64,000 bases of DNA from an uncultured Bacteroidota bacterium (GTDB lineage: Bacteria; Bacteroidota; Bacteroidia; Flavobacteriales; BACL11): NCBI GenBank assembly GCA_902587125.1, contig CACIJW010000001.1, positions 139,566 through 203,565 on the forward strand, given 5' to 3'. Positions 4,503-27,849 of the stretch are shown here, piece by piece; position 1 is the first letter of the stretch; the number at the start of each line of letters is the position of its first letter. The notes under the pieces were generated by a model. That model was not told the DNA's origin. It made no database searches and was given only the letters and a program-made list of their open reading frames with translations. The position numbers and the translations under genes are program-made.

Positions 4503-4510
4503 TAAATTTG
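4503..4510 (+). promoter_or_regulatory. Putative -7 box (TAAATTTG) before the first ompH
   Basis: Perfect TAnnTTTG starting directly after the bamA stop and ending 4 bases before the ompH ATG. If used, transcription would start at or next to the start codon. Confidence 0.45.
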
Positions 4511-4514
4511 TAAT

Positions 4515-5021
4515 ATGAAAAAAATCAAATTTTTAATCTTATTTTTCGTAATTACAAATTACTCACTTGCTCAAAAGTTTGCATATGTTGACACTGATTA
4601 TATACTTGCAAAAATACCTGAATACAATCAAGCTCAAGACAAACTTGATAATTATTCAAAAGGGTGGCAAGAGGAAATTGAAATGACTATGCAAAAAATT
4701 GAAAAAATGTATAGATCTTACCAAAGTGAACAAATTTTACTCACTGAAGAGATGAAAAGTGCAAGAGAAGACATGATATTTGCTGAGGAAAAAAAAGTTC
4801 AAGATTTACAAATAAAATATTTTGGTCCTGAAGGTATGCTTTTTTCAAAAAGACAAGAACTAATAAAACCTATACAAGACAAAATTTATGATGCTATTCA
4901 ACAGGTAGCAACTAACAACAAATATTCAGTTATATTTGATAGCTCCAGCGATTTAATTATGCTTTACACAAATAATAATTTAGACAAGAGCGACAAGGTA
5001 TTGGAACTAATGGGTTATTAA
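4515..5021 (+). CDS. OmpH/Skp family periplasmic chaperone (copy 1)
   Basis: 168-residue OmpH/Skp-like protein. It has a signal peptide ending LAQ-K (about residue 20), then the family opening KFAYVDTDYILAKIPEY, a long charged helical hairpin from about 40 to 120, and the closing YSVIFDSSSDL strand. Skp proteins hold unfolded outer-membrane proteins in the periplasm and deliver them to the BAM complex, which fits the position directly after bamA. It is followed after 14 bases by a second, divergent copy. Confidence 0.9.
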   Translation: MKKIKFLILFFVITNYSLAQKFAYVDTDYILAKIPEYNQAQDKLDNYSKGWQEEIEMTMQKIEKMYRSYQSEQILLTEEMKSAREDMIFAEEKKVQDLQIKYFGPEGMLFSKRQELIKPIQDKIYDAIQQVATNNKYSVIFDSSSDLIMLYTNNNLDKSDKVLELMGY

Positions 5022-20999: not shown

Positions 21000-21007
21000 T
21001 ATATTTG
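21000..21007 (+). promoter_or_regulatory. Putative -7 box (TATATTTG) of the TonB-receptor gene
   Basis: Perfect TAnnTTTG ending 5 bases before the ATG at 21013, which predicts a leaderless or nearly leaderless message. Confidence 0.5.
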
Positions 21008-21012
21008 CTCGT

Positions 21013-23421
21013 ATGACTTTTAAAAAAAGAGCCCTACTTCTTATTTTTACTTTATTCAGTTTCATAATTAATGGTCAAACTTTGACTGGAGTTGTTGCAG
21101 ATAAAAATAATGTCCCGCTAATAGGTGTTAATGTTTTTAATGATTCTGGCAAAGGTGTAATTACTGATATCAATGGTAGTTTTACATTAACATTGGAGCA
21201 GGGCAGTACAAAAATTAATTTCAGCTATATTGGTTTTGAAACACTATCTCAGCAATACTTTTTAGAAGCAAACGAACTAAAAAATGTAAAAATTGTTTTA
21301 AATGAAGTATCTAAAAAATTAGATGTTGTTGTAATATCAGCTGGAAAGTTTGAACAAAGAATTGAAGAAACGACTATTTCAATGGAGGTTATTAAACCAC
21401 AGATGATAGAGAATAAAAATACAACAGAAATACAGACTGCAATGGAGCAAATACCTGGCGTTAACATTACTGATGGACAAGCTAATATCAGGGGCGGTAG
21501 TGGATGGAGTTACGGGGCTGGCAGCAGAGTTCTAGTAATGGTTGATGATATGCCCTTAATTTCTGGCGATGCAGGTCAAGTGCAATGGAAGCTAATTGCC
21601 ACAGAAAATATTAACCAAGTTGAAGTTATTAAAGGTGCTTCATCGGTTTTATATGGCTCCTCAGCTTTGAATGGAGTTATAAATATAAGAACAGCTTTCC
21701 CTTCTAAAAAAGATATTGACAAGCATCCTTCAATTGGATATACAAAAATTAACACTCATTACGGATTTATTGATTTTCCTCAAAGATCTAGTTTAATATG
21801 GTGGAATCAATACAAAAGAAGGGTTTATAAGGGTCTTGAGTTTTTTCATGCTCAAAAATTAGAAAATATTAACTTAACAATTGGAGGTAATGTTTTTAAA
21901 GACCAAGGATATAGAAAAGGAGAAGTTACAGACAGAAAGAGATTTAATTTTAGTTTAGAGAAACAGGACGAAAAAATTAAAAATCTGATTTATGGAATCA
22001 AAGGAAACTTTTTATTTCAATCAACTGGCTCTGCACTAATATGGGACTCTTATGAAAATGGATATATTCCGCTTGATGACAAGATTACTACTACTAGCGG
22101 TGATGTGTTCAATGTTGATCCATATGTTAAATACACAATTGGGAACAATAGGCACTCGCTTAACACTAGATATCTTCACTTAATTAATGACAATGAAACT
22201 AAAGGAAGCGAAACCAATGATGACAACAGATCACGTCTTTTTTATACAGATTATCAATGGCAAAAAAGATTTGAAAAAATTAATTTACTTATTACAACTG
22301 GTACAACAAATGAAATAGTCTTTGCTCAATCTAAAATTTTTCAAGGCAAGAACTCAAGAAGCAATCACTCATTATATAGTCAAATTGATAAAAAATTAGG
22401 CAAGTTAAACATTTCTGCCGGAGCTAGATATGAATATTTTAGTCTAGACTCAGAGGATGGACATGAAATCAGTGGAGACACGATTTATCATTTTGCTGAG
22501 GCAAAGCCTGTTTTTAGAGGTGGTCTTAATTATCAAATTGCGGATGGTACTTTTATTCGTTCATCATGGGGACAGGGTTATCGATTTCCATCAATGGCAG
22601 AACTATTTGTGACTACTAATGTATCTGATATTGAAATATTTCCTAACCCAGAGCTCAGGTCTGAAAAGGGATGGAGCTCGGAAATAGGTCTCAAACAAGC
22701 AGTTCAATTTGGTAGATTTAAATCATTTATTGATATAGCAGCTTTCATAATGAGATATGATAATATGATGGAATTCACTTTTGGTCAATGGGGAGAACCT
22801 GAATTTGATGAAAATGGAAACGTATCAAACTTCTTTGGTTTGGGCTTTAAGTCAGTTAATGTTGGAAAAACAGAAATTAGTGGTATTGAGCTTAGTATAA
22901 CTGGCGAAGGAAAAATTAATGAGATAACAAAAATTAATTTTATTGGAGGGTACACATATATGAATCCAGTATCATTAGAGCTTAACAAATCATATGCAAA
23001 TGATTACTATGGTAATCCAATTACATACAACAACAGTAGCTCTGACTCAACAATTTTAAAATATAGATATAGGAATGTAGCTAAACTTGATATTGAAGTA
23101 TTAAGAGACAAATTTTCAATTGGCTCTAGCGTTAGATATAATGACTTTATGTCAAACATAGATTACATTTTTACAACAGATTTAATAAATAACGGAGATC
23201 CAAATTTTGGAGTTGATGCGCTAATTCCTGGTATTAATGAATCTAGAGAAAAATTTAAAGATGGTGATTTAGTTTTTGACATTAGAGTTGGTTATCAGCT
23301 TGATGAAATATCAAAAATTGGGTTTGTTGTAAATAACTTGTTTAATAGAGAATATATGAGCAGACCAGCAAATATGATGCCTCCAAGAACATTCGCTTTT
23401 CAGCTAAATTTAAAAATTTAG
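21013..23421 (+). CDS. TonB-dependent outer-membrane receptor
   Basis: 802-residue receptor with signal peptide (cleavage near NGQ-T, about residue 22), a carboxypeptidase-regulatory-like domain (about 23-105, LTGVVADKNNVPLIGVNV), a plug domain (about 115-225, ending VLYGSSALNGVINI) and a 22-strand barrel ending in a hydrophobic Ile. It lacks the typical SusC sequence and has no SusD partner, so it probably transports a small siderophore- or vitamin-like ligand; the substrate is not readable. Its stop codon overlaps the GTG start of kdsB by one base. Confidence 0.9.
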   Translation: MTFKKRALLLIFTLFSFIINGQTLTGVVADKNNVPLIGVNVFNDSGKGVITDINGSFTLTLEQGSTKINFSYIGFETLSQQYFLEANELKNVKIVLNEVSKKLDVVVISAGKFEQRIEETTISMEVIKPQMIENKNTTEIQTAMEQIPGVNITDGQANIRGGSGWSYGAGSRVLVMVDDMPLISGDAGQVQWKLIATENINQVEVIKGASSVLYGSSALNGVINIRTAFPSKKDIDKHPSIGYTKINTHYGFIDFPQRSSLIWWNQYKRRVYKGLEFFHAQKLENINLTIGGNVFKDQGYRKGEVTDRKRFNFSLEKQDEKIKNLIYGIKGNFLFQSTGSALIWDSYENGYIPLDDKITTTSGDVFNVDPYVKYTIGNNRHSLNTRYLHLINDNETKGSETNDDNRSRLFYTDYQWQKRFEKINLLITTGTTNEIVFAQSKIFQGKNSRSNHSLYSQIDKKLGKLNISAGARYEYFSLDSEDGHEISGDTIYHFAEAKPVFRGGLNYQIADGTFIRSSWGQGYRFPSMAELFVTTNVSDIEIFPNPELRSEKGWSSEIGLKQAVQFGRFKSFIDIAAFIMRYDNMMEFTFGQWGEPEFDENGNVSNFFGLGFKSVNVGKTEISGIELSITGEGKINEITKINFIGGYTYMNPVSLELNKSYANDYYGNPITYNNSSSDSTILKYRYRNVAKLDIEVLRDKFSIGSSVRYNDFMSNIDYIFTTDLINNGDPNFGVDALIPGINESREKFKDGDLVFDIRVGYQLDEISKIGFVVNNLFNREYMSRPANMMPPRTFAFQLNLKI

Positions 23422-24129: not shown

Positions 24130-24137
24130 TAAATTTG
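24130..24137 (+). promoter_or_regulatory. Putative -7 box (TAAATTTG) of the CCDC81/SPOR gene
   Basis: Perfect TAnnTTTG in the 12-base gap after kdsB, ending 3 bases before the ATG at 24141. The in-frame TTG at 24135 is the end of this box, not a start codon. Confidence 0.45.
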
Positions 24138-24140
24138 TAT

Positions 24141-25037
24141 ATGATTTACAGCCCAGAGGAGCATATAAAAGAACTCTTATTCAGACACGATTGTGTTATT
24201 ATTCCAAACTTTGGAGGTTTAGTTTCCAATCCTGTTTCATCAAAAATAAATACTGTCTCTGGCACTATTTTTCCTCCAAGTAAACTAATTGTTTTTAACA
24301 AAAATCTATCTATTAACGATGGATTATTAATTAACCATATTTCAAAAAAAGAAAAGATTTCCGTTGATGACTCTAAGAAAATAGTTTTTGATTTTTCAAA
24401 AAAAATAACTGATTCCTTGATGACTGAAAGAAGTATGAGATTGAAAAATATTGGGCTTTTTACATTGGGAAGTGAGGATAACATTATATTTCACCAAGAT
24501 ATTGCAAACAACTTTGACTTAAACTCTTTTGGTTTTGAAAGTTTTCAAATCCAAAAAAAGACAAAAACAAAGAAAATAATTGATATTAATCAATCTAGCA
24601 CAACAAAAAAAATCTCATATAAGGCAGCTGCAGTACTAGTTCCGTTAATTCTTCTATCTCTAACTAATATACTATTAGATACAAGCACTAACAATATTAA
24701 CATTCAAAAATCTGATTTAAATTTTTTTAAAAAGAGTAAAGTGCCAAAATTAAATTTGGCTGAAAACAAGATTGAAAAAGAAATAGAAAAAATTGAAACT
24801 ATAACTACTCCAGAAATGAAAAATTTTCATGTCATTGCGGGTGCATTTATCGAAAAGAGTAATGCTGAAAAGCTAAATAATTCACTAATAGAGTCAAACT
24901 TTGACTCTGAAATTCTATTGTCTGAAAATGGTTATCACAGAGTTTCTTACAACTCATTTGAAAGCAAAGAAAATGCTATAATTGAATTAGAAAAAATAAA
25001 GAGAATTAACAAATCCGCTTGGATTTTAACAAATTAG
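24141..25037 (+). CDS. HU-CCDC81-like and SPOR domain membrane protein
   Basis: 298-residue protein with three parts. The N-terminal HU/CCDC81-type domain (about 1-130) has HDCVIIPNFGGLVSNPVS. One transmembrane segment lies at about 168-188 (KAAAVLVPLILLSLTNILL). The C-terminal SPOR domain (about 230-298) begins FHVIAGAF. SPOR domains bind denuded peptidoglycan at division sites, so a septal role is likely; the cytoplasmic HU-like part may bind DNA or protein. This architecture is characteristic of Bacteroidota. I start at ATG 24141. Confidence 0.85.
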   Translation: MIYSPEEHIKELLFRHDCVIIPNFGGLVSNPVSSKINTVSGTIFPPSKLIVFNKNLSINDGLLINHISKKEKISVDDSKKIVFDFSKKITDSLMTERSMRLKNIGLFTLGSEDNIIFHQDIANNFDLNSFGFESFQIQKKTKTKKIIDINQSSTTKKISYKAAAVLVPLILLSLTNILLDTSTNNINIQKSDLNFFKKSKVPKLNLAENKIEKEIEKIETITTPEMKNFHVIAGAFIEKSNAEKLNNSLIESNFDSEILLSENGYHRVSYNSFESKENAIIELEKIKRINKSAWILTN

Positions 25038-25038
25038 T

Positions 25039-25554
25039 ATGAAATCAAAAAAAGCAAGTGAATCTGCTTCAATCACTACTGAAATAGTCCTTCCAAACGA
25101 TACTAATAACCTTGACAACTTAATGGGTGGTAGGCTACTACATTGGATGGATATTGCAGCAGCAATTTCATCACATCGACATTGTGGGAGAATAGTTGTT
25201 ACCGCATCAGTAAACAATGTTTCATTTAATAAAGCTATTCCAAGAGGAAGTATTGTTACTCTCGAAGCAAAAGTTTCAAGAGCATTTAACTCTTCAATGG
25301 AAATTTTTGTGGATGTATGGATGGAAAATAGAGCTGAAAAAGGCAAAATAAAATGTAATGAAGCTATATATACTTTTGTAGCTGTAGATCAGTTAGGAAA
25401 TCCCATAGAAGTTCCTGAACTAGTACCTGAAACTAAAAAAGAAAAAGAAAGATATGATGGAGCTTTAAGAAGAAGACAATTAAGTCTTATTTTATCAGGT
25501 AGAATGAAAGCAGATGATGCATCAGAGCTAAAAGCATTATTTACAAAAAATTAA
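25039..25554 (+). CDS. Acyl-CoA thioesterase (hotdog fold)
   Basis: 171-residue BACH/YciA-like hotdog thioesterase that hydrolyses acyl-CoA. DTNNLDNLMGGRLLHWMDIAA contains the family's conserved Asn, Gly-Gly and Asp for thioester binding and catalysis, and VNNVSFNKAIPRGSIV forms the next conserved strand. It starts 1 base after the CCDC81/SPOR gene and its last 18 bases overlap the convergent glycosyltransferase. Confidence 0.9.
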   Translation: MKSKKASESASITTEIVLPNDTNNLDNLMGGRLLHWMDIAAAISSHRHCGRIVVTASVNNVSFNKAIPRGSIVTLEAKVSRAFNSSMEIFVDVWMENRAEKGKIKCNEAIYTFVAVDQLGNPIEVPELVPETKKEKERYDGALRRRQLSLILSGRMKADDASELKALFTKN

Positions 25555-26478
25555 TTCGATAGCCTGTTTTAACTTTTGAGTTGAAATATAATCAATACAT
25601 TTTGTTATTGATCTGCATTTTTTACCATATCTGTGACAAGAATCTACATACTTTTCTGAAACTATATAAATTGAATGATTATTAGTTTGATAAGGGGTAT
25701 ATCCTAAGTCTGGCTTTGTACAGCCCCAAAGTGAAATAATTGGTATTTTGAAAGAGGCTCCAATATGCATGAATCCAGTGTCATTAGTAATTAGCAAATT
25801 GCAATTTTTTATTATTGTTGCCGTTTCTTGTATACTTAGACTACCACAAAAGTTTTTTATTTTCCTATTTGAAGATTGATTTAAGATATAATCCCCTATT
25901 TCAATATCATCAGAACCTCCAACAAAAATAATTGGATAGTTTATTGCGTTGCTAACCTCTAAAATTTTATTTGCACTTAACTTTTTATTGTCATGCTTTG
26001 AACCAATACACCATGCAATAAAATTTTCATTGTAATTAAACTTTTTTTCTAACTCTTTTGATAAGAAAAAATCTAAGCCTAAATTATCATTCTTAATTTG
26101 TAATTTTTTTAAGGCCAATAAGTATCTTTCTGCAATGTGTATATTGTTTGTTTTGTTGAACAAGTTTTTCTTTAGCTTAAATGTTTTTTTGAATAACATG
26201 AAAGTCAAAATATTAGATCTAATGTTATTGTGAAGATCTATTATAAAATCAAAATTTTCTTTTTTTAAATTAAAAAAAATATTTTTAAGCGAGTCTTTAA
26301 GTAAATGTATTTTGTGGATATTTGGATTTTCACTTACTAAAGAATAGTATTCATTTTTAGTTAAAAAATGAACCTCATATTTTTTTGAACTATTTAGTAG
26401 TCTTAAAACAGGAGATGTCAAAACAATATCACCAATAGAGCTAAACCTTATAACTAAAATTTTAACTTCTTCCATCAT
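25537..26478 (-). CDS. Glycosyltransferase family 9 (heptosyltransferase-like)
   Basis: 313-residue GT9 protein of LPS core synthesis. It opens with VKILVIRFSSIGDIVLTSP, the classic ADP-heptose transferase N-terminus, and has DFIIDLHNNIRS and the C-terminal donor-site motif TNDTGFMHIGASFKIPIISLWG (read as TNDTGFMHIGA and PIISLWG). Donor sugar is uncertain. Two ATG codons stand in tandem at the start. Convergent overlap with the thioesterase gene is 18 bases. Confidence 0.88.
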   Translation of the reverse strand: MMEEVKILVIRFSSIGDIVLTSPVLRLLNSSKKYEVHFLTKNEYYSLVSENPNIHKIHLLKDSLKNIFFNLKKENFDFIIDLHNNIRSNILTFMLFKKTFKLKKNLFNKTNNIHIAERYLLALKKLQIKNDNLGLDFFLSKELEKKFNYNENFIAWCIGSKHDNKKLSANKILEVSNAINYPIIFVGGSDDIEIGDYILNQSSNRKIKNFCGSLSIQETATIIKNCNLLITNDTGFMHIGASFKIPIISLWGCTKPDLGYTPYQTNNHSIYIVSEKYVDSCHRYGKKCRSITKCIDYISTQKLKQAIELIFCK

Positions 26479-26502
26479 TTGATAAAATTAGGTAAATAAT
26501 AC

Positions 26503-26510
26503 TAATTTTG
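26503..26510 (+). promoter_or_regulatory. Putative -7 box (TAATTTTG) of tatD
   Basis: Perfect TAnnTTTG ending 4 bases before the tatD ATG; predicts a leaderless message. Confidence 0.5.
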
Positions 26511-26514
26511 TTTC

Positions 26515-27297
26515 ATGTATCTAATTGATAGTCATTGTCATTTATATGCTAAGAACTTTGAAGATGATATTGAAAAGGTGGTTCAGCAATCAATAAATAA
26601 TAATGTAAAAAAAATACTTTTACCAAACATTTCATCCCAAACAACAGATGTTATGCTTAACGTTTGTAATAGATTTTCTAATTGTTTACCTATGATTGGC
26701 TTACATCCTTGTGAAGTAAATAATAACACATATGAAAGTGAATTAAAACATGTTGAAGAATCTCTAAGAAATAATAATTTTATTGCAGTGGGGGAAACTG
26801 GAATAGATTTATATTGGAATAAAGAAACACTCGAAATACAAAAAGAAGCATTTCTATTTCAGATTAAATTAGCAAAAAAATATTCTTTACCCATTGTAAT
26901 ACACTTAAGAGAATCTTTTGATGAGGTTATTGAAATAATAGAAGCTGAAAATGACGAAAACTTGTCTGGAGTTTTTCATTGCTTCAGTGGTGATTTGAAT
27001 CAAGCAAATAGAGTAATTAATTTAAATGGATTCTATTTAGGGATTGGTGGTGTTGTTACCTTTAAGAATTCTAGTCTAGATACAATTTTGAAAGATATAG
27101 ACTTAAAGCACATTATTTTAGAGACAGATTCACCATATCTGTCACCCCACCCTTTTAGAGGAAAAAGAAATGAACCTAAAAATATATTAACAATAGCAGA
27201 AAAAATATCAATTATAAAAACATGTGACATATTGGAAGTTGCCGAAATAACAACTTATAATTGCAATAAATTATTTGATTTAAAACTTGAAACATAA
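26515..27297 (+). CDS. tatD: TatD family metal-dependent DNase
   Basis: 260-residue TIM-barrel hydrolase. Metal ligands are visible in IDSHCHL (N-terminus), VGETGIDLYW, HCFSGD and the closing LETDSPYLSPHPFRGKRN. TatD proteins are 3'-5' exonucleases or D-aminoacyl-tRNA deacylase-like hydrolases acting in the cytoplasm. The stop codon is immediately followed by the tRNA-Ser gene without any spacer. Confidence 0.93.
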   Translation: MYLIDSHCHLYAKNFEDDIEKVVQQSINNNVKKILLPNISSQTTDVMLNVCNRFSNCLPMIGLHPCEVNNNTYESELKHVEESLRNNNFIAVGETGIDLYWNKETLEIQKEAFLFQIKLAKKYSLPIVIHLRESFDEVIEIIEAENDENLSGVFHCFSGDLNQANRVINLNGFYLGIGGVVTFKNSSLDTILKDIDLKHIILETDSPYLSPHPFRGKRNEPKNILTIAEKISIIKTCDILEVAEITTYNCNKLFDLKLET

Positions 27298-27384
27298 GGT
27301 GAGGTGGCCGAGTGGCTTAAGGCGCACGCTTGGAAAGCGTGTAAACGGGAAACTGTTTCGGGGGTTCGAATCCCTTCCTCACCG
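27298..27384 (+). tRNA. tRNA-Ser (anticodon GGA)
   Basis: 87 bases with a full cloverleaf. The acceptor stem GGTGAGG/CCTCACC is perfect (27298-27304 with 27377-27383) with discriminator G at 27384. The anticodon stem is CACGC/GCGTG with loop TTGGAAA, giving anticodon GGA for TCC/TCT. A long variable arm, typical of serine tRNAs, follows, then the GGTTCGAATCC T-loop region. The CCA end is not encoded. The gene abuts the tatD stop, so both may lie on one transcript that is processed. Confidence 0.97.
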
Positions 27385-27468
27385 CAAATAATTTAATTTT
27401 TACAAACATTTTACTCTAAATTTATGAAGATTTAATAAACTGATTCAATGTAATTTTTTATTAAGATC

Positions 27469-27476
27469 TAGTTTTG
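27469..27476 (+). promoter_or_regulatory. Putative -7 box (TAGTTTTG) of the GNAT-like gene
   Basis: Perfect TAnnTTTG ending 4 bases before the GTG at 27481. Confidence 0.45.
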
Positions 27477-27480
27477 ATAT

Positions 27481-27849
27481 GTGAAAATTGAAATTATAGA
27501 GGTAGATAAATGCACTGTGATTTTTTTAGCTATATCTAATAGTAAAGTTATAGGAAAATGCTCTTTTAAAATTAGAGCAAACAAAACAATCAGATATTTT
27601 GATGCTTATATTTCTACTAAGCACAGAAACAAAGGAATATATAATTCTCTATTTAAGAGGAGACAAAAATTTATTGAAAACAACTTTCCAAATTGGAAAA
27701 TTGAATCTTATTGTAGAAGTTCTACAATTGAATTATTTAAGAACAATGGATTTGAAATAATTGAAAATTTGTACTTAGTTTCAAAAAAAAGTGTTTTTAT
27801 TAATGATTCATTAAACTCAAAAAAAATTAATATAAATAAAAAAACTTAA
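27481..27849 (+). CDS. GNAT-like N-acetyltransferase, small
   Basis: 122-residue protein with a shortened GNAT fold. KVIGKCSFKIR is a candidate beta2-beta4 region, YISTKHRNKGIYNSLFKRR resembles acetyl-CoA motif A (R/Q-x-x-G-x-G/A), and IELFKNNGFEIIENLYLV is the classic C-terminal 'lone Phe-Gly-Phe' motif B. The A motif has Ile where the second Gly is usual. The start is GTG at 27481 because the ATG two bases earlier meets a stop at once. The Lys/Asn-rich tail is extra. Substrate unknown. Confidence 0.65.
   Translation: MKIEIIEVDKCTVIFLAISNSKVIGKCSFKIRANKTIRYFDAYISTKHRNKGIYNSLFKRRQKFIENNFPNWKIESYCRSSTIELFKNNGFEIIENLYLVSKKSVFINDSLNSKKININKKT

Follow-up and report, generated by a model that had tools for sequence, protein, structure and literature searches.

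Promoter boxes placed four bases before start codons predict leaderless mRNAs in a family of Flavobacteriales

In Flavobacterium johnsoniae, the transcription starts predicted by RNA-seq lie 4 or 5 bases after a TAnnTTTG box, with the box at -12 to -5 (PMC6847099), and its position in F. psychrophilum agrees (-12 to -5; PMC9723704). Leaders of 10 nt or less make up 13% in F. johnsoniae (PMC6847099), the leaderless share is 5.5% in F. psychrophilum (PMC9723704), and in B. thetaiotaomicron 3.7% of the 5' UTRs are under 10 nt according to dRNA-seq (PMC7366714). Furthermore, Bacteroidota do without Shine-Dalgarno (SD) sites, and upstream bases tune initiation (PMC6847099). Leaderless RTG starts at +1 have been described in mycobacteria (PMC4633059), and Zheng et al. 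(2011), who used the Pribnow box, reported leaderless genes in 1 of 37 Bacteroidetes/Chlorobi genomes, stating that genes under other promoters could be missed (PMC3160421).

The genes considered here carry the TAnnTTTG -7 element of sigma-ABfr, i.e., the same box as in the Flavobacterium maps, where a leaderless class exists as well. Leaderless transcripts from this promoter are thus known at a low share, and what is new is their predicted abundance in the family of the present genome, a family that can be called marine from the isolate names of close named relatives (marine single-cell or metagenome Bacteroidota/Flavobacteriales). In contrast to the values of 5.5% and 13% measured in Flavobacterium, we consider it probable (roughly 0.85) that sigma-ABfr -7 boxes 4 or 5 bases before the start codon give rise to predicted leaderless mRNAs at about 30-35% of the perfect-box promoters in this family. 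B. thetaiotaomicron shares the promoter class and differs in its small fraction of short 5' UTRs. The mycobacterial transcripts are similar in that RTG stands at +1 in many genes beside leadered ones, but they belong to another phylum with another promoter and ribosome, and translation was shown there by ribosome profiling, as opposed to the sequence prediction made here. The logic of a promoter box at a fixed distance to the start is that of Zheng et al., with TAnnTTTG in place of the Pribnow box. Mechanistically, the -7 element of this primary sigma factor would be sited such that RNA polymerase starts at the start codon or one base before it; the messages would begin with AUG, in the genus under study sometimes with GUG, and would be translated in the leaderless mode from their 5' ends, lacking the A-rich leader found in other genes.

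In the window (the whole stretch of DNA that was analysed, 64,000 nt), the first-pass annotation had named five genes as preceded by perfect TAnnTTTG boxes at a distance of 3-5 bases, and all five boxes are indeed present. They are given here together with a variant box on the opposite strand and the respective genes:

26503..26510, + strand: TAATTTTG, promoter -7 box of tatD, 4 bases before the ATG; spacer 4-5 in most loci of the family
26515..27297, + strand: tatD (TatD DNase), predicted leaderless; PF01026, 2e-72; family alignments begin at residue 1
26483..26490, - strand: TAATTTTA, -7 box with one mismatch on the strand opposite to tatD, with spacer 4 to the start (ATG) of the divergent gene
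25537..26478, - strand: gene divergent to tatD; on a reading of the sequence, the variant box predicts it to be leaderless
24130..24137, + strand: TAAATTTG, box of the CCDC81/SPOR gene, 3 bases before the ATG at 24141
24141..25037, + strand: gene for a protein with HU-CCDC81 and SPOR domains, Pfam above cut-off
4503..4510, + strand: TAAATTTG, box of ompH1, located in the 13 bp that separate ompH1 from the POTRA (BamA-like) gene; spacer 4
4515..5021, + strand: ompH copy 1 (OmpH-like), predicted leaderless in its own genus; Pfam OmpH above cut-off
21000..21007, + strand: TATATTTG, box of the TonB-dependent receptor gene, 5 bases before the ATG at 21013
21013..23421, + strand: TonB-dependent receptor gene, Pfam above cut-off
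27469..27476, + strand: TAGTTTTG, box of the GNAT-like ORF, 4 bases before the GTG at 27481; weak, with G at box position 3
27481..27849, + strand: GNAT-like ORF beginning with GTG; a weakly supported gene, below the Pfam cut-off and missed by the gene finder

The individual spacers, i.e., the numbers of bases between box and start codon, are 3, 4, 4, 4 and 5. Of the proposed gene identities, HU-CCDC81/SPOR, TatD, OmpH and TonB receptor hold above the Pfam cut-off, but GNAT falls below it (22.8 bits vs 27). Between tatD and the GNAT-like ORF lies a tRNA-like sequence (27299-27385), by eye probably a tRNA-Ser. As the window contains no more boxes than shuffled sequence (106 vs 113 expected), and as box-N4-ATG occurs 3 times vs 1.9 expected, which is not beyond chance, the window alone does not carry the leaderless claim.

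The genome comprises 1.54 Mb (1542 kb) in 36 contigs, of which 859 kb with a G + C content of 29.9%, taken in stretches and including the window, were used for a spacer histogram. A simple home-made caller, which sets gene starts by coding score and does not use upstream motifs, yielded 730 genes in this sample; the spacer was scored for 727 of them, counting perfect TAnnTTTG boxes only. At spacer 4 there are 41 of the 727 genes and at spacer 5 there are 10, while every other spacer from 0 to 9 holds between 0 and 5 genes. The 41 genes compare with a mean of 4.2 over spacers 6-30 (Poisson P ~1e-26). No peak at spacer 4 is seen with the reversed or complemented motif or with most of the scrambled ones (0-2 genes there), and TAnnTTTA, which differs in one letter, gives a minor peak of 9 genes. 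This histogram is the very check that had been named beforehand for the leaderless claim, a lack of excess at this distance being the outcome set against it, and a sharp excess was found at spacer 4 and then at 5. The proposed range of 3-5 bases can, however, be upheld in part only, since the genome-wide signal is spacer 4, sometimes 5, and spacer 3, with 4 genes, is not clearly enriched. With transcription starting 4-5 bases after the box, a distance adopted for the present genome from the published Flavobacterium work, spacer 4 would place +1 at the A of the ATG. That the peak falls exactly where the published mapping predicts it supports leaderless or near-leaderless messages, in the form of a narrower rule by which they would be expected at spacer 4 and sometimes at 5.

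Across the entire genome, box-N4-ATG occurs 103 times vs 33 occurrences of the frame-matched control box-N7-ATG. When called starts are left aside and the raw DNA of this genome is searched for boxes beginning outside genes, spacer 4 is followed by ATG in 45 and by GTG in 11 cases, and there is no peak for TTG and CTG, in keeping with the description of leaderless mRNAs as beginning with ATG or GTG but not TTG. Likewise, GTG starts are enriched at spacer 4-5 (9/51 vs 3/109 leadered genes). In a genome of a second genus of the family, G339, the distribution is bimodal, with 26 genes at spacer 4, 10 at spacer 5, few at 6-13 and a leadered hump at 14-31; in the genome under study, unlike G339, spacers 6-13 are not empty. 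GTG has no spacer-4 peak in G339.

After subtraction of the background, and considering perfect-box promoters with a box-to-start distance of up to 50, the predicted leaderless share is 35% (95% interval 27-44) in the genome under study and 30% (21-40) in G339. For G154, which belongs to a different family within the order, the estimate is 10%, based on 6 genes at spacer 4-5 and with a wide interval (2-22); the predicted 30-35% of the family under study are about three times this value. Counts for further genomes were taken from a table comprising all genomes of the same order and class and a hand-chosen part of more distant ones, which is not a full ranking of the phylum. In the 27 tabulated genomes of the family, including the one under study, 2601 occurrences at spacer 4 vs 960 at spacer 7 correspond to an excess of 37.5 per Mb. 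The excess is 9.4 per Mb in f3, a large family of the order, and about 2, almost no spacer-4 excess, in a Bacteroidaceae-like family (f18, the identity being a guess). A strong excess is also found in other families (occurrences at spacer 4 vs spacer 7: G041 128 vs 40, G115 80 vs 16, G144 56 vs 8), with G041, whose sample is too small for a spacer histogram, as high as the family under study. Of the genes predicted to be leaderless here, 8 of 23 orthologs are leaderless in G339, compared to 12 of 249 others (P = 5e-5), which suggests partial conservation of the leaderless state along with turnover, only about one third of the calls being kept between the two genera.

The surroundings of the box are those of a promoter. 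Divergent orientation is found for 30 of the 51 genes with spacer 4 or 5, as opposed to 113/567 of the genes lacking a box; a same-strand gene ending less than 30 bases upstream precedes only 11 of the 51, as opposed to 350/567. The base directly after the box is C or T at 84% of the leaderless and 74% of the leadered boxes, and therefore both look like one element. In the columns aligned on the box, only A/T richness is visible upstream and no clear -33 TTTG element, which is weak in F. johnsoniae too (PMC6847099). Leadered genes are A-rich ahead of the start, where leaderless genes have the box instead. These data bear on the idea that the box at spacer 4 is a ribosome-recruiting motif in mRNAs whose transcription starts further upstream. 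The tuning of initiation by upstream bases in Bacteroidota lacking SD sites, as referred to above, makes such a signal conceivable, but it would not be expected to occur in first genes, to be rare close behind another gene, and to recur with the same following pyrimidine in leadered genes. Nor would it explain that the ompH1 box stays in place with the start anywhere from 4 to 23 bases away, or that tatD has just 36 bp at its disposal, which are shared with a divergent gene. A translation signal is accordingly very unlikely.

The 36-bp intergenic region of tatD has a box for either direction, the minus-strand neighbour reading TAATTTTA-TCAA-ATG, and, from the reading of these letters, both genes may be leaderless. 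Back-to-back boxes are also seen elsewhere: a spacer-4 box with ATG has a reverse box no more than 30 bases upstream of it in 5-19 cases per family genome vs 0-2 cases for the reversed control. Four divergent pairs are exactly 36 bp apart (window 26479-26514, C1:20152, C3:74565 and C4:61138), each start having a box or near-box at a distance of 4 bases; this 36-bp spacing is not repeated among the divergent leaderless pairs of G339. In the sample of the genome under study, reverse boxes peak 24 bases upstream of the starts (17 genes). A palindromic box with shared TA, CAAAnnTAnnTTTG, was considered and rejected, as some of its 11 copies lie inside genes and about 4 are estimated by chance.

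In most loci of the family the tatD box is found at spacer 4 or 5; in a few it has a single mismatch, and one box lies at spacer 6. The letters of the spacer drift, and the identity of the TatD proteins is about 57-61% outside the genus. The same protein helps in judging whether the promoters might be real with many true start codons lying further inside the genes, which would result in short leaders. Starts were called by coding score, and some ORFs, such as that of the TonB receptor, stay open upstream of the called start. However, the relatives of TatD align from residue 1, and, with the DSHCH motif at residues 5-9, there is hardly space for a start further inside; the relatives of the CCDC81 protein have the same N-terminal length, and starts misplaced at random would not create a single-base peak for ATG and GTG. 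Misplaced starts are therefore a highly improbable explanation. Finally, that TAnnTTTG before ATG is simply frequent in a genome of 30% GC and that the cases were picked, for which the lack of an excess within the window might speak, can practically be dismissed in view of a genome-wide peak at one spacing that is absent for scrambled motifs and at the frame-matched spacer 7 and is repeated in the 27 family genomes.

Given leaderless transcription as the preferred reading, the ompH1 locus offers a natural series of one promoter with several leader lengths. At the end of the POTRA gene, the family has kept both the box and its flanking sequence, with a distance to the start of 4 in the genus under study and a few others and of 18-23 in most genera; as the box is fixed while the spacer varies, one promoter appears to serve leaderless and leadered versions. 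Upstream of CCDC81/SPOR, a perfect box at spacer 3-5 is present in 16 of 30 loci and a single-mismatch box in 7 more (23/30), the spacer being 3 in the genus under study (four genomes) and mostly 4-5 in other relatives. Since a gene on the same strand ends 13 bases before ompH1 and 12 bases before CCDC81/SPOR, both are probably also read from longer messages, and read-through from the preceding gene could account for most of the expression of some genes such as these two.

The TonB receptor has a leadered ortholog in G339. The weakest of the five cases is the GNAT-like ORF, a doubtful one, for which four other genomes of the genus yielded no relative and whose box has a G at a position where F. 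johnsoniae is virtually devoid of G.

If about one third of the recognisable promoters of the family are leaderless, SD-blind initiation becomes directly testable by means of leaderless and leadered orthologs, and for this family a box plus 4 bases could serve as a rule for the correction of start codons. Rather unlikely, but broader in scope, is a scenario in which a large part of initiation in the family has moved to the 5' ends of the RNAs, with about a third of the promoters leaderless and often compact and back-to-back, with A-tract leaders in the genus under study perhaps lengthened by slippage, and possibly with a changed anti-SD. When 30 family genomes of at least 80% completeness were searched for the canonical anti-SD pattern of the 16S 3' end, it was not found in 29; the tail may differ or the rRNA may be absent from the assemblies, and no 16S gene was found in the DNA sampled from the genome under study. 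Upstream of rpsU in G339 there is no obvious SD, a single locus that proves nothing alone. Ribosomal protein bS21 is present in 27 of the 30 family genomes.

Among boxes at spacer 8-14 in the sample of the genome under study, 12 of 36 are followed by at least seven consecutive A ahead of the start, compared to 11 of 535 genes lacking a box and to 0 of 11 such boxes in G339. As these runs cover the expected transcription start, slippage could make 5' poly(A) leaders; examples are located at C1:79165 (-), C3:115597 (+) and C4:8983 (-).
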